This document shows positions 2,204-25,239 of a stretch of 30,348 nt of DNA, piece after piece. Position numbers and translations under genes: made by a program. Every line of letters begins with the position of its first letter. The stretch's first letter is position 1. The stretch comes from a virus. The stretch lies in the IMG/VR virus record IMGVR_UViG_3300046804_003162, positions 1 through 30,348 of that record; one strand, written 5' to 3'. The notes beneath the pieces were generated by a model. It did no database searches. It was given only the letters and a program-made list of their open reading frames with translations, and had not been told where the DNA came from.

Positions 2204-2880
2204 TGTATAAAATACACGAAATGTTCCCAACGATTGTGTATCAGGGAACAGTAGAGTGTCATCAAGAATTCAAAAAGAAAAATCTTGACTCTCTAAGGTC
2301 TTACTGGTTTAATGGGTATGAAAATGAAAGTCCTGAATATTCGGGAAGAATTTTTACCCACCAAAAACCAGAATACCGACAATTTTTTAAAGAACTCCGC
2401 ACTCACGTAGACAATTATTTCAAAGTTCTTAACGTTGATTATAATAAATTAGATTATCATATTATTAAGTCTTGGGTTGGTTGTCATTTGAATGATGAAA
2501 CTCCTTCGATTAAACCGCACACTCATAATGAATCAAATTTAAGTTATGTTTACTATGTAAAGACTGACGAAACTTCGGATAAGTTATGTATTGCTCAACC
2601 TAAAAATAAAAATGAGTGTGTTGAAGATTTATTTCAAACTGCAATACAAAGAAATCTAATTACAAGTTATAATCAGTATAATTGTAATTACTACACAGTG
2701 ACACCAAAAGAAGGAACAGTTGTTATTTTTCCAAGTAACATTGGACACTTCACTCAAAAAATTACAACAAGAAAAGATGAACGTATTGTGATGCCTGGTG
2801 ATATTCGTGTTACTTTAAAAAGAGAACACTTTGATTATCATCAAGGATCTACTCATCCCTCTCAGTGGTTGGAATTGTAA
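2203..2880 (+). CDS. Putative 2OG-Fe(II) oxygenase-like protein
   Basis: 225 residues from the ATG at 2203, preferred over an in-frame TTG one codon earlier because it forms a TGATG coupling with the preceding stop. It opens with the MYKIHEMFPTIVYQG type N-terminus seen in phage 2-oxoglutarate/Fe(II) oxygenase-like proteins. A metal-ligand region HTHNES (H106, H108, E110) is followed by SYVYYVK, and a downstream PSNIGHF motif supplies H182. R202 in DIRVTLK could bind the 2-oxoglutarate carboxylate. Such genes are common in T4-like cyanophages. The substrate is unknown; its place directly behind two fibre-tip genes makes hydroxylation of a virion protein possible, but this is inference. Confidence 0.65.
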   Translation: MYKIHEMFPTIVYQGTVECHQEFKKKNLDSLRSYWFNGYENESPEYSGRIFTHQKPEYRQFFKELRTHVDNYFKVLNVDYNKLDYHIIKSWVGCHLNDETPSIKPHTHNESNLSYVYYVKTDETSDKLCIAQPKNKNECVEDLFQTAIQRNLITSYNQYNCNYYTVTPKEGTVVIFPSNIGHFTQKITTRKDERIVMPGDIRVTLKREHFDYHQGSTHPSQWLEL

Positions 2881-2887
2881 CAACCTC

Positions 2888-2916
2888 TTGACACCAGCAC
2901 CTGACCGTGCTATGAT
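2888..2916 (+). promoter_or_regulatory. Consensus sigma70-type promoter
   Basis: A perfect -35 TTGACA (2888-2893) and a -10 TATGAT (2911-2916) are separated by 17 bases, immediately after the stop of the oxygenase-like gene and about 25 bases before the next start. This is the host-type early promoter architecture rather than the T4 late TATAAATA box. It probably starts transcription of the small genes from 2942 onward. Confidence 0.7.
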
Positions 2917-2941
2917 ACATAGGTAACCAACGGACGACCGA

Positions 2942-3124
2942 ATGCAAGACGAGTACCTCTCACGATGCGTAGTTGACCCCATTAAGCGTACAGTATATCT
3001 GTATTCTAGTGAAGGGTCAGAAAAGCAAGTGACTTGTGATACAGTTGATGAATTTATGAATGTGTTAGAGTTCGTTCGTGCTACTGTGAATGAAGAGACT
3101 CTCTCATACGCAAATCCACTTTAA
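2942..3124 (+). CDS. Small protein of unknown function
   Basis: 60 residues; not recognised. The protein begins MQDEYLSRCVVDPIKRTVYL and reads as a short beta-hairpin (VVDPIKRTVYLYSSEGSEKQV) followed by a helix (DEFMNVLEFVRATV). It has no membrane segment, signal peptide or metal-binding motif. It lies about 25 bases downstream of a consensus sigma70-type promoter, so it is probably expressed early and might be a small host-takeover or regulatory protein; this is inference. No convincing Shine-Dalgarno precedes the ATG, but the promoter position and coding composition support it as a real gene. Confidence 0.6.
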   Translation: MQDEYLSRCVVDPIKRTVYLYSSEGSEKQVTCDTVDEFMNVLEFVRATVNEETLSYANPL

Positions 3125-3183
3125 AATCCCCTTAGGGGTCCAAAAATTCCCGGCAAAAATTCTCACACGATACTTTTTTCAAA

Positions 3184-3390
3184 ATGAATCCTTATCGCAT
3201 TAACTACAAAGCACTGAAACAAGAACCAGTGAAAACAACACCAGAGAATGTGAAGGAAGCAAATGAGAATTTGTTTTGTGCAAAGTGGAATCTTCCTCAA
3301 GCAGCAAAGCACTGCGGAATGTCACATAAAGAAATGAAGTTGACATTCTTTGAGTACTTGAAGTATAATCCTATGACTTACCAAGCGTAA
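3184..3390 (+). CDS. Small protein with HTH-like C-terminal half
   Basis: 68 residues; family not recognised. After a polar N-terminus, residues about 34-62 (AKWNLPQAAKHCGMSHKEMK and on) have the pattern of a helix-turn-helix: a helix containing AAKH, a CGM turn, then a second helix SHKEMKLTFFEYLK. A small DNA-binding protein is therefore possible but unproven. Its last codons contain an exact-consensus sigma70 promoter (3340-3369) that points into the tRNA-Leu gene starting 10 bases after its stop. The 59-base gap upstream holds only a short CCCC/GGGG hairpin without a following T-run. Confidence 0.6.
   Translation: MNPYRINYKALKQEPVKTTPENVKEANENLFCAKWNLPQAAKHCGMSHKEMKLTFFEYLKYNPMTYQA
3340..3369 (+). 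promoter_or_regulatory. Exact-consensus sigma70 promoter for the tRNA-Leu gene
   Basis: TTGACA (3340-3345) and TATAAT (3364-3369), both identical to the bacterial consensus, are 18 bases apart. The element sits inside the 3' end of the small upstream gene, in the codons for KLTFFEYLKYN. Transcription would begin near 3376, about 25 bases before the tRNA 5' end. It probably gives the intron-containing tRNA its own early, host-polymerase-driven transcript. Confidence 0.7.
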
Positions 3391-3400
3391 GTTTTTTATT

Positions 3401-3681
3401 GGGAGCGTGGTGGAATCGGTAGACACAACGGACTTATGGAAATTGAGCCTCATCTGGGAAACCTTATGAGTGTAACTCCTCAAATTCGGGGAAACCTGTA
3501 AAATGGCAATCCCGAACCAAGCATCGTAAGATGAAGGTGTAGAGACTAGACGGGGAGCACCTAAACTGAAAGGTATGGTGAAGGGATAGTCCAGACCACA
3601 AACTCTATGAGGCAGCGAAAGTTGTAGTGGTAAGAAAATCCGTCGGCTTCGGCTGTGCGAGTTCAAGTCTCGCCGCTCCCA
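3401..3681 (+). tRNA. trnL-UAA: tRNA-Leu(UAA) interrupted by a group I intron
   Basis: The exons are 3401-3435 and 3635-3681. Joined, they give a complete class II tRNA. The acceptor stem is GGGAGCG (3401-3407) with CGCTCCC (3674-3680) and discriminator A at 3681. The anticodon stem is ACGGA (3428-3432) with TCCGT (3639-3643) around loop CTT|AAAA, anticodon UAA. The variable arm CGGC-TTCG-GCTG (3644-3655) has a UUCG tetraloop, and the T stem is GCGAG/CTCGC around TTCAAGT. The intron interrupts the anticodon after its first base (between positions 34 and 35), the site used by cyanobacterial and plastid tRNA-Leu(UAA) introns. No CCA is encoded. The tRNA would read UUA and UUG, and UUA is frequent in this AT-rich phage. 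Confidence 0.95.
3436..3634 (+). ncRNA. Group I intron (tRNA-Leu, IC3-like), 199 nt
   Basis: The 5' exon ends in U and the intron ends in G (3634), as group I introns require. The pairings can be traced directly. P1: exon CTT (3433-3435) with GAG (3445-3447), placing a U-G wobble at the splice site. P2: 3449-3453 with 3466-3470. P3: 3476-3479 with 3554-3557. P4: TTCGGG (3485-3490) with CCCGAA (3511-3516). P6: 3522-3525 with 3530-3533, capped by GTAA. P7: GACTA (3544-3548) with TAGTC (3587-3591). P8: 3558-3561 with 3577-3580. P9: CAGC-GAAA-GTTG (3613-3624). The core resembles the Anabaena tRNA-Leu intron as I remember it, with P5 and P6 much shortened. There is no internal ORF. Self-splicing is inferred from structure. 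Confidence 0.93.
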
Positions 3682-3702
3682 TTATGTTTTAAACTTTTAA
3701 AG

Positions 3703-3710
3703 CATAAATA
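3703..3710 (+). promoter_or_regulatory. T4-like late promoter box (CATAAATA)
   Basis: CATAAATA lies between the tRNA-Leu gene and the HNH gene, 21 bases upstream of the HNH start codon. It differs from the T4 late consensus TATAAATA only in the first base. It suggests the endonuclease is expressed late and separately from the tRNA. Confidence 0.5.
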
Positions 3711-3731
3711 GTCATAGAGTATTCGAACTTT

Positions 3732-4052
3732 ATGGCGTACAAGGACCCACAAAAACAAAGAGAATATCAAAGAGAATGGATAAAACAAAATAACAAGCAA
3801 ACTAGTTATTTGAAAAGAAAACAAATGGTTAGGGATGCCAAATCAAAACCTTGCCAGTCTTGCAGCAAATCTTATGATCCAGTTTGTATGGATTTGCATC
3901 ATATTGATCCTACAATAAAAGATGGTATGATAGCAAAATTTGTAAGAAATGCAAGTTATGATAAACTTCAGGAGGAAATTGATAAATGTATGGTTTTATG
4001 TGCTCCTTGCCATAGAATGTATCACGCAGGACTATTAAGTTTTCTAAAATAA
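3732..4052 (+). CDS. Free-standing HNH homing-type endonuclease
   Basis: 106 residues. Residues 1-33 are very basic and Gln/Arg-rich (DPQKQREYQREWIKQNN), a likely DNA-binding arm. A zinc-binding HNH core follows: CQSC near residues 42-45, the catalytic LHHID near 56-60, and CMVLCAPCHRMYH near 88-100, which supplies the second Cys pair and the final His. This is the arrangement of phage HNH homing endonucleases, which nick or cleave DNA and spread themselves or linked introns. It starts 51 bases after the intron-containing tRNA-Leu and has its own late-type promoter box. Collaboration with the tRNA intron in homing is a reasonable hypothesis, not shown by sequence alone. Confidence 0.85.
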   Translation: MAYKDPQKQREYQREWIKQNNKQTSYLKRKQMVRDAKSKPCQSCSKSYDPVCMDLHHIDPTIKDGMIAKFVRNASYDKLQEEIDKCMVLCAPCHRMYHAGLLSFLK

Positions 4053-4081: not shown

Positions 4082-4351
4082 ATGAAGTACAGAATTGATG
4101 CCGCATATGTCTGGTACAATCGCGGAAAACAAATTGTTCTTATGTATTTCATAAATTCAATTCCTTTCACTTTTGATGAACTCCCAGACGAATCCATATT
4201 CGACACGGAGTTAATCGAATTGGCAGATAACGAAAGACGATACGAACCAGAAGACCTCTATCAATCATCTTATTATTTGATGTTGGAAGAGTGCCATCCT
4301 CTGATGTTTGAACTTGAACTGGAAAATCCAGAAATGTTGCCTGTTGATTAA
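4082..4351 (+). CDS. Small acidic protein of unknown function
   Basis: 89 residues; not recognised. The N-terminal half (residues 1-27, including AYVWYNRGKQIVLMYFI) is a hydrophobic beta-hairpin, not clearly membrane-spanning. The rest is strongly acidic: DELPDESIFDTELIELADNE, then EPEDL, and a C-terminus ELELENPEMLPVD. Acidic small phage proteins often bind host proteins or mimic DNA, but nothing here identifies a target. It ends 2 bases before the tRNA-Thr gene. Coding composition and spacing support it as a real gene; function unknown. Confidence 0.55.
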   Translation: MKYRIDAAYVWYNRGKQIVLMYFINSIPFTFDELPDESIFDTELIELADNERRYEPEDLYQSSYYLMLEECHPLMFELELENPEMLPVD

Positions 4352-4353
4352 AT

Positions 4354-4426
4354 GCCTCTATAGCTCAGTGGCCAGAGCACTCGCCTTGTAAGCGAGCGGT
4401 CCTCGGTTCGAATCCGAGTGGGGGCT
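4354..4426 (+). tRNA. trnT-UGU: tRNA-Thr(UGU)
   Basis: A 73-nt cloverleaf without an intron. The acceptor is GCCTCTA (4354-4360) with TGGGGGC (4419-4425), including two G-U pairs, and the discriminator is U. The anticodon stem is CTCGC/GCGAG around loop CTTGTAA, anticodon UGU at 4387-4389. The T arm is CTCGG-TTCGAAT-CCGAG. No CCA is encoded. It reads ACA codons, which are common in the Thr-rich fibre genes downstream; that link is inference. Confidence 0.93.
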
Positions 4427-4776: not shown

Positions 4777-5430
4777 ATGAAATCAGATTTTTATATAGAT
4801 AGGGTAGGTAAAGAAGATATCAAAGAACTTCTTTATACCTATCATTATCTTAAAGACGAATCAAAGGATTTTAAAAGTGGATATAACTACTCACTTTACC
4901 GCAAATCATTCACAGATGTCCTTAATATTGGCGGGTCTGTTGGTTGCTGCGTTTTTAGCACTCTCCCAGTTCCAGAAATTGCAGTAGGTGCATTTGGACT
5001 AGAAAGAAATCAACAAGAGGGTATCTATGAACTCTCAAGACTTTGTATACATCCAGATATTCAAAAAGAAGAATATAATATCACATCTTGGTTCGTCAGT
5101 CGTTGTATAAAGAGGCTTAAAAAAGATGCCCGCGTTCGTGCTATTCTTAGTTACGCTGACAATAATCACCACACTGGAATTATATACAGAGCTTGCAATT
5201 TTCAATACTATGGTTTGACTGATAAAAAGTCAGACTTTTGGATTAAACAACCAGACGGGTCATATATAAAGCACTCAAGAGGACCTACTAAAGGTTTGGA
5301 TGGGGAATGGAGAGAAAGAAGTAGAAAGCACCGATACTTGATGGTATTTGATAAGCAATTGAAAGAAAGGTTGACGTGGAAAGAAGAGTCGTGGTATAAT
5401 AATAAAGACGATACTGAATCGTTACAGTGA
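4777..5430 (+). CDS. Mom-like DNA modification protein (GNAT-fold)
   Basis: 217 residues. Recognisable blocks match the Mom family of phage adenine-modifying proteins. YELSRLCIHPD (about residues 84-94) is followed by SWFVSRCIKRLKK (about 108-120), then AILSYADNNHHTG with IIYRACNFQYYGLT (about 122-148). The family fold is acetyltransferase-like, and phage Mu Mom converts adenine in DNA to a methylcarbamoyl derivative that blocks restriction enzymes. By analogy this protein may modify phage DNA against host nucleases; the exact chemistry cannot be read from sequence. It is the last gene before a strong terminator and sits in the early-type island. The C-terminus (from about residue 160) is basic and could bind DNA. 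Confidence 0.6.
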   Translation: MKSDFYIDRVGKEDIKELLYTYHYLKDESKDFKSGYNYSLYRKSFTDVLNIGGSVGCCVFSTLPVPEIAVGAFGLERNQQEGIYELSRLCIHPDIQKEEYNITSWFVSRCIKRLKKDARVRAILSYADNNHHTGIIYRACNFQYYGLTDKKSDFWIKQPDGSYIKHSRGPTKGLDGEWRERSRKHRYLMVFDKQLKERLTWKEESWYNNKDDTESLQ

Positions 5431-16283: not shown

Positions 16284-17090
16284 ATGTCTCAGACGAAGGC
16301 ACAATTAGTATCTCCAGTTGGTATATTAACAGTAAGTAATATTAGTGTTTCTGGAATATCAACTCTTGGTGTTACTACAGTTACCAATTTAACTGGACAG
16401 CAACTTAATGTTTCTGGTGTTTCTACATTAGGAACACTTCAGATTTCTTCTGGCATTGTCACTGCAACATCTGGCATTATTACGTATTATGGTGATGGTT
16501 CTAAATTATCCAGTGTAATTTCTGGTGTTGGTATTAGAACCTCTGGTGGACTTGTTGGAACTGGAGCAACAGTTATTGATTTCCTTGGTTCTGGAATTTC
16601 TACAGTTACAGTTGCTTCTGGTATTGCAACTATTAATGTTAGTGGTGGAGGTGGTGGAATTACTGTTGCGGATGATACTTCTACAAATGCAACAAGATAT
16701 CCAGTATTTGAGGATTTAACTTCTGGTTCTGTTTCCACAGTTAATGTATCATCATCAAAACTTCAATTTAATCCATCAACAGGAACATTATCCGCAACAA
16801 TCTTTACTTCACTTTCTGATGCTTCTCAAAAAGCAAATGTTCATCCAATTGAAAATCCAATAGAACTTACAAAACAACTTCAAGGTGTAAGATTTAATTG
16901 GATAGATAATAATCAACCATCTCTGGGTTTAATTGCACAAGAAGTTGAAAAAGTCCTTCCAGAATTGATTGAAACTGGCGATGATGGTTTAAAAAGAGTT
17001 AATTATTCAAGTATGATTGGTTTGTTAATTGAGACTGTGAAAGAACAACAAAATCATATTGAAGAACTGGAGAGAAAATTAAATGCCTAA
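16284..17090 (+). CDS. Short tail fibre with C-terminal S74 intramolecular chaperone
   Basis: 268 residues. Residues about 15-125 reuse the fibre modules of the 712-residue protein (VSGISTLGVTT, LNVSGVSTLGTLQ, ATSGIITYYGDGSKL), followed by a glycine hinge (SGGGGG). From S178 the sequence is an S74 endosialidase-type intramolecular chaperone: SDASQKANV, then FNWIDNNQPSLGLIAQEV, ETGDDGLKRVNYSSMIGLL and a coiled-coil end. In this family Ser and Lys of an SDxxxK motif form the self-cleavage dyad after trimerisation; here S178 and K183 are present. The common Arg between them is Ser. The last 8 bases overlap the start of the first RCC1 propeller gene, so the two are probably co-translated. Confidence 0.85.
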   Translation: MSQTKAQLVSPVGILTVSNISVSGISTLGVTTVTNLTGQQLNVSGVSTLGTLQISSGIVTATSGIITYYGDGSKLSSVISGVGIRTSGGLVGTGATVIDFLGSGISTVTVASGIATINVSGGGGGITVADDTSTNATRYPVFEDLTSGSVSTVNVSSSKLQFNPSTGTLSATIFTSLSDASQKANVHPIENPIELTKQLQGVRFNWIDNNQPSLGLIAQEVEKVLPELIETGDDGLKRVNYSSMIGLLIETVKEQQNHIEELERKLNA

Positions 17091-18261
17091 TCAATTCCTT
17101 TCGGATGAATTCGGAGATCTTGAAAATTATTTTATAACTGACTACAGATTGATCGATCAGTATATTGGCGATACTCTATGGTCTTGGGGATATAATCCTT
17201 ATGGAACACTAGGAGTTAATGATACTACAGATAGAAATACTCCAGTTACCACATTACTTGGAGGAACCAATTGGAAATCGGTTGCTGGTGGATTATATCA
17301 CACCATTGCACTCAAGACTGATGGAACTCTATGGTCTTGGGGATATAATGATTTTGGACAACTAGGAGTTAATAATAATACAACTAGAAGCACTCCAGTG
17401 ACTACATTACTCGGTGGGACCAATTGGAAATCAGTTGCTGGTGGAAATTATCATACGATTGCAATCAAAACTGATGGAACTCTATGGTCTTGGGGATATA
17501 ATGGTTATGGACAACTAGGAGTTAATGATACCACACCTAGAAGCACTCCAGTGACCACATTACTCGGTGGGACCAATTGGAAATCGGTTGCTGCTGGACA
17601 ACAGTACACCATTGCACTCAAAACTGATGGAACTCTATGGTCTTGGGGTCGCAATAGTTATGGAGCACTAGGAGTTAATGATACCACACCTAGAAGCACT
17701 CCAGTGACCACATTACTCGGTGGGACCAATTGGAAATCGGTTGCTGGTGGATTATATCACACCATTGCAATCAAGACCGATGGAACTCTATGGTCTTGGG
17801 GACTTAATAATAATGGACAACTAGGAGTTAATAATACTGCACAAAGAAATACTCCAGTGACCACATTACTCGGTGGGACCAATTGGAAATCAGTTGCTGG
17901 TGGTTATGGGCACACCATTGCAATCAAAACTGATGGAACTTTATGGTCTTGGGGATATAATAGTAATGGACAACTAGGAGTTAATGATACTACGCAAAGA
18001 AATACTCCAGTGACTACATTACTCGGTGGGACCAATTGGAAATCGGTTGCTGCTGGACAACGGTACACCATTGCACTCAAAACTGATGGAACTCTATGGT
18101 CTTGGGGATATAATAGTAATGGACAACTAGGAGTTAATGATACTACACATAGAAGCACTCCAGTGACTACATTACTTGGAGGGACCAATTGGAAATCAGT
18201 TGCTGGTGGATCATATCACACCATTGCACTTACTGCAGGACAATCAGTAGATTTTTCATAA
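17083..18261 (+). CDS. RCC1-type seven-bladed propeller protein 1
   Basis: 392 residues. A unique 31-residue N-terminus (MPNQFLSDEFGDLENYF and on) is followed by seven 51-residue RCC1 repeats and a short tail. Each repeat has LWSWG, a G-LGVN loop, an invariant TPVTTLLGGTNWKSVA block and the RCC1 signature VAGG-x-x-HTIAI, which fits the PROSITE RCC1 pattern. Seven repeats predict a closed beta-propeller. Residue changes fall in patches (repeat positions 6-11, 16-21, 38-43). Being coupled to an S74 fibre and followed by a fibre-chaperone-like gene suggests a virion ligand-binding head; this is inference. A role as a eukaryotic-type Ran exchange factor is very unlikely. No signal peptide. Confidence 0.85.
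   Translation: MPNQFLSDEFGDLENYFITDYRLIDQYIGDTLWSWGYNPYGTLGVNDTTDRNTPVTTLLGGTNWKSVAGGLYHTIALKTDGTLWSWGYNDFGQLGVNNNTTRSTPVTTLLGGTNWKSVAGGNYHTIAIKTDGTLWSWGYNGYGQLGVNDTTPRSTPVTTLLGGTNWKSVAAGQQYTIALKTDGTLWSWGRNSYGALGVNDTTPRSTPVTTLLGGTNWKSVAGGLYHTIAIKTDGTLWSWGLNNNGQLGVNNTAQRNTPVTTLLGGTNWKSVAGGYGHTIAIKTDGTLWSWGYNSNGQLGVNDTTQRNTPVTTLLGGTNWKSVAAGQRYTIALKTDGTLWSWGYNSNGQLGVNDTTHRSTPVTTLLGGTNWKSVAGGSYHTIALTAGQSVDFS
17176..18231 (+). repeat. RCC1 repeat array 1: seven 153-bp units
   Basis: Units start every 153 bases from 17176 (CTATGGTCTTGGGG at each start). They are near-identical to each other and to arrays 2 and 3. Synonymous differences (GTT/GTG, ACC/ACT/ACA, CTT/CTC, TCG/TCA) appear in mixed combinations, suggesting recombination among units. 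Confidence 0.9.
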
Positions 18262-18278: not shown

Positions 18279-18959
18279 ATGTACGCACTCGTTCACGATA
18301 ATCAATTAATTTTAGGTCCAATCCAATATAATTACCGATTGATTAATTCTGATTTGGAAGAACTTGAAGTTGAAGGTAGAGTAGCACCAAGAGATTATGA
18401 GAATATACCTCTTCATATTGATGATAAAACCTCTCTGGTTTCTGCTGTTCAGATTATACCTTCGTATGATGAAAGATTTCAAAATTTGGGAAACTTTGAA
18501 TGGGAAATTATTAGAGAAAATGATATCCCAGTGAGAGTTGAAATGACTTACTCTATAGGTGATAAATCATTAGAACAAATAAAATTTGAATATAAGTCTC
18601 AAGTTGCACCAATTCGTAGAGCAAAAGAAAACACAGCAATTGATGTTGTAATTGGAGGTAATACTGTTACTATTTCAACAAGTCGTGAAGACCGATTATC
18701 ATATGTAAGTAAATTGTTGTCCTCTACTGGTCCTTATAACTTTAAGTTTTCTAATGATGTTTGGTTAGAAATTACTTCAACAGATCTTGAGTATATTATT
18801 TCTCAAATTGATTTAAAAGTTCAAGAAGCATTTGATTGGGAACTTTCAAAACTTCAAGAAATTGATGTCTGTGTGACTGGTGAAGAAGTTTATAATGTGA
18901 TTTTAAAAGAACCTCAAGAACCAGTGGAAACCGCAAATGCCTTACCAACCAACAACTAA
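18279..18959 (+). CDS. DUF4376-type tail-fibre assembly protein
   Basis: 226 residues. The N-terminus (MYALVHDNQLILGPIQYNY) is a beta domain. From about residue 100 it carries a DUF4376-like region: IKFEYKSQVAPIRRAKENT, then TISTSREDRLSYVSKLLSS, a WLEITSTDLEYIISQIDLKV segment and VQEAFDWELSKLQEID. This family sits next to phage fibre genes and is thought to act in fibre assembly, possibly as a chaperone. It lies between propeller genes 1 and 2 and overlaps propeller 2 by 23 bases, so it may serve propeller attachment; that is inference. It is preceded by a late promoter box. Confidence 0.65.
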   Translation: MYALVHDNQLILGPIQYNYRLINSDLEELEVEGRVAPRDYENIPLHIDDKTSLVSAVQIIPSYDERFQNLGNFEWEIIRENDIPVRVEMTYSIGDKSLEQIKFEYKSQVAPIRRAKENTAIDVVIGGNTVTISTSREDRLSYVSKLLSSTGPYNFKFSNDVWLEITSTDLEYIISQIDLKVQEAFDWELSKLQEIDVCVTGEEVYNVILKEPQEPVETANALPTNN

Positions 18960-20157
18960 TTTTAAAGACAGTGGTGGCGGTGATCTAGGCAAAAATCTAA
19001 TTAGCAAAGATTACCTTTTAGAAGTTTATCCAAGTATTTTAAATTCTCTTGGTAATTCTTCTTTGACAGTTTCTCCTACTCTATGGTCTTGGGGTCGCAA
19101 TTATTATGGACAACTAGGAGTTAATGATACTACAGCTAGAAATACTCCAGTGACTACATTACTCGGTGGGACCAATTGGAAATCGGTTGCTGGTGGTTAT
19201 GGGCACACCATTGCACTCAAAACTGATGGAACTTTATGGTCTTGGGGATATAATCCTTATGGAACACTAGGAGTTAATGATACTACAACTAGAAGAACTC
19301 CAGTGACTACATTACTTGGAGGGACCAATTGGAAATCGGTTGCTGGTGGTTATGGGCACACCATTGCAATCAAAACTGATGGAACTCTATGGTCTTGGGG
19401 ACTTAATAATTATGGACAACTAGGAGTTAATAATACTACAAGTAGAAGCACTCCAGTTACAACATTACTCGGTGGGACCAATTGGAAATCAGTTGCTGGT
19501 GGAAATTATCATACGATTGCAATCAAAACTGATGGAACTCTATGGTCTTGGGGATATAATTATTATGGAGCACTAGGAGTTAATAATACTACAAGTAGAA
19601 GCACTCCAGTTACAACATTACTCGGTGGGACCAATTGGAAATCGGTTGCTGGCGGACAATATCACACCATTGCACTCAAGACTGATGGAACTCTATGGTC
19701 TTGGGGATATAATGCTTTTGGAACACTAGGAGTTAATGATACTACAACTAGAAGCACTCCAGTGACTACATTACTTGGTGGGACCAATTGGAAATCGGTT
19801 GCTGGTGGATTATATCACACCATTGCAATCAAGACCGATGGAACTCTATGGTCTTGGGGAAATAATAATTATGGACAACTAGGAGTTAATAATACTGCAC
19901 AAAGAAATACTCCAGTGACTACATTACTTGGAGGAACCAATTGGAAATCGGTTGCTGCTGGAAATTATCAGACCATTGCAATCAAAACCGATGGAACTCT
20001 ATGGTCTTGGGGATATAATCCTTTTGGAACACTAGGAGTTAATGATACTACATATAGAAGCACTCCAGTGACCACATTACTCGGTGGGACCAATTGGAAA
20101 TCAGTTGCTGGTGGTTATTGGCACACCATTGCAATTCAATCTTTATCTGATATCTAA
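18937..20157 (+). CDS. RCC1-type seven-bladed propeller protein 2
   Basis: 406 residues, beginning inside the 3' end of the DUF4376-type gene. The N-terminal 48 residues are unique (MPYQPTTNFKDSGGGDLGKN then LISKDYLLEVYPSILNSLG) and may be a docking segment. Seven RCC1 repeats of 51 residues follow, with the same invariant TPVTTLLGGTNWKSVA block as propellers 1 and 3, and a short QSLSDI end. Variable residues after LWSWG include R, Y, L and N, and the two residues before the HTIA motif vary (YG, NY, QY, LY, YW). One segment matches propeller 1 repeats 4-5 almost base for base, so recombination between the genes is likely. A receptor- or glycan-binding head on the virion is inferred. Confidence 0.85.
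   Translation: MPYQPTTNFKDSGGGDLGKNLISKDYLLEVYPSILNSLGNSSLTVSPTLWSWGRNYYGQLGVNDTTARNTPVTTLLGGTNWKSVAGGYGHTIALKTDGTLWSWGYNPYGTLGVNDTTTRRTPVTTLLGGTNWKSVAGGYGHTIAIKTDGTLWSWGLNNYGQLGVNNTTSRSTPVTTLLGGTNWKSVAGGNYHTIAIKTDGTLWSWGYNYYGALGVNNTTSRSTPVTTLLGGTNWKSVAGGQYHTIALKTDGTLWSWGYNAFGTLGVNDTTTRSTPVTTLLGGTNWKSVAGGLYHTIAIKTDGTLWSWGNNNYGQLGVNNTAQRNTPVTTLLGGTNWKSVAAGNYQTIAIKTDGTLWSWGYNPFGTLGVNDTTYRSTPVTTLLGGTNWKSVAGGYWHTIAIQSLSDI
19081..20136 (+). repeat. RCC1 repeat array 2: seven 153-bp units
   Basis: Units start at 19081 and every 153 bases to 19999. The tract from about 19807, coding for GLYHTIAIKTDGTLWSWG and reaching NNTAQRN, is shared with array 1 from about 17748, including a rare AAGACC codon pair. 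Confidence 0.9.
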
Positions 20158-24066: not shown

Positions 24067-25239
24067 ATGCCGGACGACATTAATTATAGATTTACAGAAA
24101 ACGGAGTAGTTTATAATTTTGCGGATGTTTTTGTTCCTTCGGATCTCTTTAGGCAACCTGCTTTGTGGTCTTGGGGATATAATTATTTTGGGCAACTAGG
24201 AGTTAATGATACTACAACTAGAAGCACTCCAGTGACCACATTACTTGGAGGGACCAATTGGAAATCGGTTGCTGGTGGAAATTTGCATACGATTGCAATC
24301 AAAACTGATGGAACTCTATGGTCTTGGGGTAGCAATAGTTATGGAGCACTAGGAGTTAATGATATTACAAATAGATATACTCCAGTGACTACATTACTTG
24401 GAGGGACCAATTGGAAATCGGTTGCTGGTGGACAATATCACACCATTGCACTCAAGACTGATGGAACTCTATGGTCTTGGGGAGTTAATAATAATGGACA
24501 ACTAGGAGTTAATGATACTACACATAGAAGCACTCCAGTTACAACATTACTCGGTGGGACCAATTGGAAATCGGTTGCTGGCGGACAATATCACACCATT
24601 GCACTCAAAACTGATGGAACTCTATGGTCTTGGGGATATAATCCTTATGGAACACTAGGAGTTAATGATAATACAAATAGAAGCACTCCAGTGACTACAT
24701 TACTTGGAGGAACCAATTGGAAATCAGTTGCTGCTGGAAATTATCAGACCATTGCAATCAAAACCGATGGAACTTTATGGTCTTGGGGATATAATGCTTT
24801 TGGAATACTAGGAGTTAATAATACTGCACATAGAAGCACTCCAGTGACTACATTACTTGGAGGAACCAATTGGAAATCAGTTGCTGGTGGAAATAATCAC
24901 ACCATTGCACTCAAGACTGATGGAACTCTATGGTCTTGGGGACTTAATAATAATGGACAACTAGGAGTTAATGATACTACGCAAAGAAATACTCCAGTGA
25001 CTACATTACTTGGAGGAACCAATTGGAAATCGGTTGCTGCTGCATCTTATCACAACATTGCAATCAAAACTGATGGAACTTTATGGTCTTGGGGATATAA
25101 TCCTTATGGACAACTAGGAGTTAATGATACTACAAGTAGAAGCACTCCAGTGACCACATTACTTGGAGGAACCAATTGGAAATCGGTTGCTGGCGGACAA
25201 TATCACACCATTGCAATCCAATACACACCTGACCCATAA
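24067..25239 (+). CDS. RCC1-type seven-bladed propeller protein 3
   Basis: 390 residues. A unique 32-residue N-terminus (MPDDINYRFTENGVVYNFAD and on) precedes seven 51-residue RCC1 repeats and a short QYTPDP end. The invariant block TPVTTLLGGTNWKSVA is kept in all seven. Changes cluster at the same positions as in propellers 1 and 2, including VNNNG, SNSYG, YNAFG and the unusual SVAAASYHN in repeat 6. Unlike the first two, this copy lies inside the glycan operon: it begins 1 base after the Cys-cluster gene and is followed 6 bases later by a sulfotransferase. That placement makes it a candidate acceptor or adaptor for the operon's glycan chemistry, or a lectin-like binding head; both are inference. 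Confidence 0.85.
   Translation: MPDDINYRFTENGVVYNFADVFVPSDLFRQPALWSWGYNYFGQLGVNDTTTRSTPVTTLLGGTNWKSVAGGNLHTIAIKTDGTLWSWGSNSYGALGVNDITNRYTPVTTLLGGTNWKSVAGGQYHTIALKTDGTLWSWGVNNNGQLGVNDTTHRSTPVTTLLGGTNWKSVAGGQYHTIALKTDGTLWSWGYNPYGTLGVNDNTNRSTPVTTLLGGTNWKSVAAGNYQTIAIKTDGTLWSWGYNAFGILGVNNTAHRSTPVTTLLGGTNWKSVAGGNNHTIALKTDGTLWSWGLNNNGQLGVNDTTQRNTPVTTLLGGTNWKSVAAASYHNIAIKTDGTLWSWGYNPYGQLGVNDTTSRSTPVTTLLGGTNWKSVAGGQYHTIAIQYTPDP
24163..25218 (+). repeat. RCC1 repeat array 3: seven 153-bp units
   Basis: Units start at 24163 and every 153 bases to 25081. The first begins TTGTGG rather than CTATGG, marking the join between the unique N-terminus and the repeat cassette. Shared third-position variants with arrays 1 and 2 again appear in new combinations. 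Confidence 0.9.

Follow-up and report, generated by a model that had tools for sequence, protein, structure and literature searches.

The window, by which we mean the whole stretch of DNA analysed here, is an entire IMG/VR virus record of 30,348 bases and reads as a fragment of a T4-like cyanomyovirus (Kyanoviridae). Its left part is similar to such T4-like cyanomyoviruses as S-SM2, Bellamy and SynMITS9220M01. The locus of interest is a split tRNA-Leu(UAA) gene with an HNH endonuclease gene behind it, and its features are as follows.

3401..3435, + strand: 5' exon of tRNA-Leu(UAA), ending at U34 (ARAGORN on the spliced sequence, 118.4; cloverleaf; alignment with intronless tRNA-Leu genes from cultured cyanophages)
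3436..3634, + strand: IC3-type group I intron of 199 nt, without a long internal ORF (RF00028, 57.1 bits; covariation in 32 introns)
3635..3681, + strand: 3' exon of tRNA-Leu(UAA), beginning at A35, CCA not encoded (ARAGORN, cloverleaf, alignment)
3703..3710, + strand: T4-type late-promoter-like motif CATAAATA, just before the HNH gene (motif listing)
3732..4052, + strand: HNH endonuclease gene, 106 aa (phrog_3106, 1.2e-26; PF01844, 3e-4, just under the cut-off)
4082..4351, + strand: conserved cyanophage ORF (phrog_4134), which directly follows tRNA-Leu in intronless relatives
4354..4426, + strand: tRNA-Thr(UGU), the next syntenic marker

By analogy with T4-like phages, the CATAAATA motif may act as a late promoter for the HNH gene. 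Further along, the window encodes a Mom-like DNA modification protein (4777-5430; PF25680, 9e-21), for which tblastn found no relatives among the compared cyanophage loci. Its tail-fibre region holds three near-alike repeat proteins (17083-18261, 18937-20157 and 24067-25239) whose repeats, LWSWGYN..GQLGVNDTT, look RCC1-like by eye.

ARAGORN reports no tRNA in the raw sequence at 3401-3681. Once 3436-3634 is removed, it reports tRNA-Leu(taa) with a score of 118.4, the highest among all T...G splice pairs tried, and the spliced RNA folds at -30.7 kcal/mol into a cloverleaf with the long variable arm typical of leucine tRNAs. The insertion point lies after the first anticodon base (U34). The last base of the 5' exon is a U that takes part in the P1 U.G pair, a pair kept in 32 of 32 aligned sequences, and the last base of the intron is a G. 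An earlier note, made from the letters of this DNA alone, had described the same anatomy: exons that join into a complete tRNA-Leu(UAA) and still fold as a tRNA without 3436-3634, an intron after the first anticodon base, a 5' exon ending in U and an intron ending in G. All of this was borne out, the terminal bases in the alignment of 32 introns, and its coordinates proved right to the base.

Applied to random places on phage contigs, the same splice procedure gave a tRNA at 1 of 133, as opposed to 96 of 133 sites carrying the intron core motif (fetched viral loci, among the matches listed). On this control we rejected a chance tRNA arising from many splice trials. A separate IMG/VR record, the 18.6-kb contig L016, carries an intron and flank identical to those of the window; an assembly artefact is therefore unlikely, and we discarded that explanation.

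The covariance-model search that the earlier note had suggested matched RF00028 (Intron_gpI) at 3426-3611 with 57.1 bits against a cut-off of 50 (cmscan, E = 3.6e-12). We assigned the P1-P9 pairs by hand on the window sequence, following the known IC3 plan, and built a structural alignment of the window intron with 31 introns from phage contigs (n = 32). P1-P9 are all present, including P5, which had been missing from the pairings (P1-P4 and P6-P9) traced previously. Across the 32 phage introns, standard pairs occupy 94.4% of paired cells and at most 45% in slid controls, a share that is biased toward the window because the structure was drawn from its sequence. The stronger structural evidence is the occurrence of both-side changes, which were found in 30 of the 52 pairs. 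The covariation score was 0.450, against a shuffled mean of 0.155, with covarying helices P3, P5, P6, P6a, P7, P8 and P9. The P3-P8 core with P7 and the terminal G place the insert in group I, as do the RF00028 match and the covariation. It is short, lacks P5abc and sits in a tRNA anticodon loop, and both the alignment and the trees that include tRNA introns of cyanobacteria and proteobacteria show its kinship to known IC3 introns; on this basis we classify 3436-3634 as an IC3-type group I intron. As far as sequence can tell, the case for a real group I intron in this phage tRNA-Leu gene is well supported.

Cultured relatives supply the empty site. At this locus S-SM2, Bellamy and SynMITS9220M01 run from tRNA-Leu(UAA) through the phrog_4134 ORF, tRNA-Thr and a small ORF to the tail fibre; the tRNA-Leu is unsplit, and no HNH gene precedes the phrog_4134 ORF. 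An uninterrupted tRNA-Leu(UAA) is also present in the same region of S-SKS1, S-SRM01, RN05-S and DSL-LC03. What the window has in addition to its intronless relatives is the intron and the 106-aa HNH gene. The intron had no match among the cultured cyanomyoviruses of the phage collection.

Pattern scans detected the intron core in at least 120 IMG/VR stretches. The 96 sites within tRNA genes comprised 41 Leu(UAA) and 29 Arg(UCU), the rest being Asn, Lys, Gln, Thr, SeC/UCA and others, in a search that accepted anticodon-loop insertions only. At a few loci the tRNA type varies with the splice pair chosen. Viral status is as given by IMG/VR, except for the named phages. Near-copies were common, and 202 introns, bacterial ones included, collapsed into 158 clusters. 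Among huge phages, LR756501 (735 kb) carries an intron of about 205 nt in tRNA-Leu; in LR756511 (595 kb) the tRNA-Leu(UAA) intron spans 700 nt (2403 to 3102) and contains the coding sequence of an HNH protein. An unannotated tRNA-Leu(UAA) of the cultured Agrobacterium phage Atu_ph07 (NC_042013, near 112.9-113.3 kb) has a 278-nt group I-like intron; the main text of the paper on this phage gives 33 tRNAs and makes no mention of introns (PMC6102473). In Gordonia phage Daredevil, a tRNA-Lys(UUU) near 2830-3160 contains a 238-nt intron. The scans thus present the window intron as one member of a common class in phage tRNA genes.

Several loci have features of their own. The Daredevil tRNA-Lys intron is about 0.5 kb from an integrase gene, and the locus may overlap the attachment site. 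Two contigs, L010 (280,913 bases) and L017 (142,679), each have three intron-bearing tRNAs (Arg, Leu, and Lys or Val, the third site of L010 being one whose type depends on the splice pair), and the three introns belong to different lineages on one contig; two of these three tRNAs were seen on L048 (83,129 bases). IC3 introns also occur in UCA-anticodon tRNAs, opal suppressor or SeC-like, on the IMG/VR contigs L036, L080 and L130. Pelagiphage HTVC120P and KT997847 have relatives of the intron between pieces of their capsid genes, and a Microcoleus phage record has an annotated tRNA-Arg of 286 nt.

The literature contains little on such introns. A 2014 review stated that, although phages have many tRNAs, every phage group I intron seen by then lay in a protein gene (PMC3984707). 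Introns in tRNA genes of Lak megaphages were reported in 2019 (Devoto et al.) as new, enigmatic and unclassified (PMC6784885). These are like ours in residing in phage tRNA genes but come from other hosts and other tRNAs, and the comparison is by their description. The earlier expectation that a phage intron of this kind is "rarely or never described" is therefore right as to "rarely", within the open-access literature, and wrong as to "never", given the Lak introns and a class this common.

The earlier note had also called the intron cyanobacterial in type and read it as lateral movement of a tRNA intron between host and virus. The window intron does resemble cyanobacterial tRNA-Leu introns in gene, in insertion exactly after U34, in terminal G and in IC3 core. 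However, in a sample of 120 bacterial stretches carrying the short IC3 core, the tRNA-Leu site was used in cyanobacteria, in alpha-, beta- and gammaproteobacteria, in Acidobacteriota and in Bacteroidota; a site common to several phyla is therefore no pointer to cyanobacteria. The window intron differs from the cyanobacterial ones in being phage-borne, in falling in a separate clade and in having an HNH gene behind its tRNA. It is also shorter (199 nt, compared with 212-369 nt in the sampled cyanobacterial copies), and its core motif is GTAGAGACTAGACGG, in contrast to the GCAGAGACTCGACGG of most cyanobacterial copies.

In three trees the window intron grouped with 15 other phage introns, a clade of 10 Leu and 6 Arg(UCU) introns. 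The cyanobacterial tRNA-Leu introns formed a clade that excludes it with 100/100 support, so the alignment and trees that the earlier note had proposed as a check place it outside the cyanobacterial lineage. The clade members checked by DNA search (L041, L114, L045, L008 and L052) were all cyanomyovirus-like contigs. Since Leu and Arg(UCU) introns share one phage-only clade, movement between tRNA genes within cyanophages is indicated. Forcing the phage and cyanobacterial clades together was 10.9 log units worse and was not rejected (AU test, p = 0.39), and for that reason the two may have a deep common origin.

We also examined the likely hosts. Of 194 cyanobacterial genomes, 20 could be recognised by their alpha-carboxysome gene as kin of Prochlorococcus and marine Synechococcus. 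None of the 20 had the intron core at up to one mismatch or an RF00028 match above the cut-off, and all 20 had an uninterrupted tRNA-Leu(UAA), which suggests that the likely hosts lack the intron. If the phage had recently acquired its tRNA-Leu intron from a cyanobacterial host, the shared gene and insertion site would be accounted for, and the unrejected sister relation is compatible with such an event. Set against this are the nesting of the window intron in a phage-only clade, the fully supported separate cyanobacterial clade, the 20 picocyanobacteria-type genomes and the use of the site in other phyla. We regard such a transfer as extremely improbable, and neither host origin nor recent exchange between host and virus, as envisaged earlier, is favoured. 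The intron instead appears to belong to a phage lineage. The pairing with an HNH gene is a more interesting lead than host origin.

The HNH gene of the window starts 49 nt 3' of the tRNA-Leu. An HNH start 42-52 nt past the tRNA end was found at 28 of 85 phage intron tRNAs (among the matches listed), while among the 413 intronless tRNAs of these contigs only 8 had an HNH gene within 200 nt (Fisher p = 5e-17; HNH calls in this test are motif patterns). The association persisted after removal of near-copies (12 of 48 intron clusters and 8 of 341 intronless tRNAs, p = 2e-7). Bacterial tRNA introns are similar in being short and of IC3 type, and some, such as that of Tahibacter, share the core motif AAGGTGTAGAGACTAGACGG, but they lie in cellular genes, and no HNH gene was found behind the tRNA at any of 99 bacterial loci. 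Eleven of the 12 HNH-bearing clusters fall in the window's clade. About three quarters of the phage tRNA-intron clusters have no HNH gene; the association thus belongs chiefly to a single clade.

The HNH genes at this spot behind phage intron tRNAs are of at least four dissimilar types. In the contig pairs L068/L052 and L008/L020 the introns are at least 97% alike, and each pair differs by a single block of 510-512 bp reaching from the tRNA end to the next ORF. The HNH protein encoded inside the LR756511 tRNA-Leu intron is of the same family as the one behind the tRNA-Leu of L041 (48% identity); that of the window is of another type. HNH genes also occur behind intronless tRNAs in two cultured phages, 76 nt after tRNA-Leu(UAA) in DSL-LC03 and behind tRNA-Leu(CAA) in S-CRM01, and for this reason HNH genes may simply favour tRNA flanks. 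In DSL-LC03 (3271-3757), the HNH gene follows an apparent tRNA 5' half, cut at the anticodon loop, and this stretch lies just behind the intronless tRNA-Leu(UAA).

Our preferred reading, to which we give a probability of about 0.6, is a self-splicing intron that restores the tRNA, combined with collaborative homing by the neighbouring HNH enzyme. It draws on the anatomy, the covarying structure, the empty sites, the phage-only clade and the nonrandom HNH association. The transcript would splice itself with guanosine, using the P1 U.G pair, the G-site in P7 and the terminal G, to yield a normal tRNA-Leu. The intron would destroy the HNH recognition site on its own genome, and the HNH enzyme would cut the intronless tRNA genes of co-infecting phages. 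Repair would then copy the tRNA with intron and HNH gene together (co-conversion), with the HNH module being gained and lost independently of the intron. Guanosine-driven self-splicing, HNH cutting and co-conversion are predictions from sequence. The endonuclease gene adjoins the intron-bearing gene (3732-4052), an arrangement enriched in the clade, and marks the window HNH protein as a candidate enzyme for homing into the intronless allele. A comparable arrangement occurs in cyanophage S-PM2, where F-CphI sits next to the psbA intron; collaborative homing has been proposed for this pair, and the intron blocks self-cutting (PMC6083498). Both cases involve a cyanophage, a group I intron and a free-standing endonuclease gene adjoining the split gene; the target here is a tRNA gene, the enzymes are of HNH types, not the Endo VII type, and cutting by the window enzyme is a prediction.

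The same data could reflect an intron that is spliced, neutral and vertically kept in cyanophages, with the HNH genes being unrelated selfish elements that favour tRNA 3' flanks. The clade members without an HNH gene (L020, L081, L122, L052 and L114) and the HNH genes behind intronless tRNAs in the two cultured phages fit this explanation. It is harder to reconcile with the strong enrichment of HNH genes behind intron-bearing over intronless tRNAs of the same contigs, which survives removal of near-copies, or with the presence of one HNH family inside a tRNA-Leu intron as well. We consider it unlikely, while still giving it appreciable weight. Alternatively, the intron might serve the phage, by splitting the anticodon loop of the precursor so that host anticodon nucleases are evaded or tRNA maturation is delayed. 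Phage tRNAs are targets of host tRNA nucleases and also countermeasures to them, and the introns do interrupt the anticodon loops of many tRNAs, that being the only region the search accepted. However, once spliced, the mature tRNA would be no better shielded than other tRNAs, and the same intron type resides on bacterial chromosomes, which makes this explanation very unlikely.

Alongside the homing reading, we see roughly even odds for a broader picture, in which phage tRNA IC3 introns are a large, hardly noticed family that jumps between tRNAs (Leu, Arg and others), and several unrelated HNH genes of cyanophages settled independently at one and the same place behind the split tRNA and drive its collaborative homing. 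Phage group I introns have been described as residents of protein genes, whereas in the present data phage tRNA genes emerge as a common location for them. They are missed by a routine tRNA finder and stand unannotated even in a cultured phage, Atu_ph07. Their presence raises a testable question: by what route mobile introns pass from one tRNA gene to another, and whether it is phages that have carried the introns found here and there in the tRNA genes of bacteria and, by way of bacteria, of plastids. Experimental work on intron homing at tRNA genes could start directly from the paired HNH genes.
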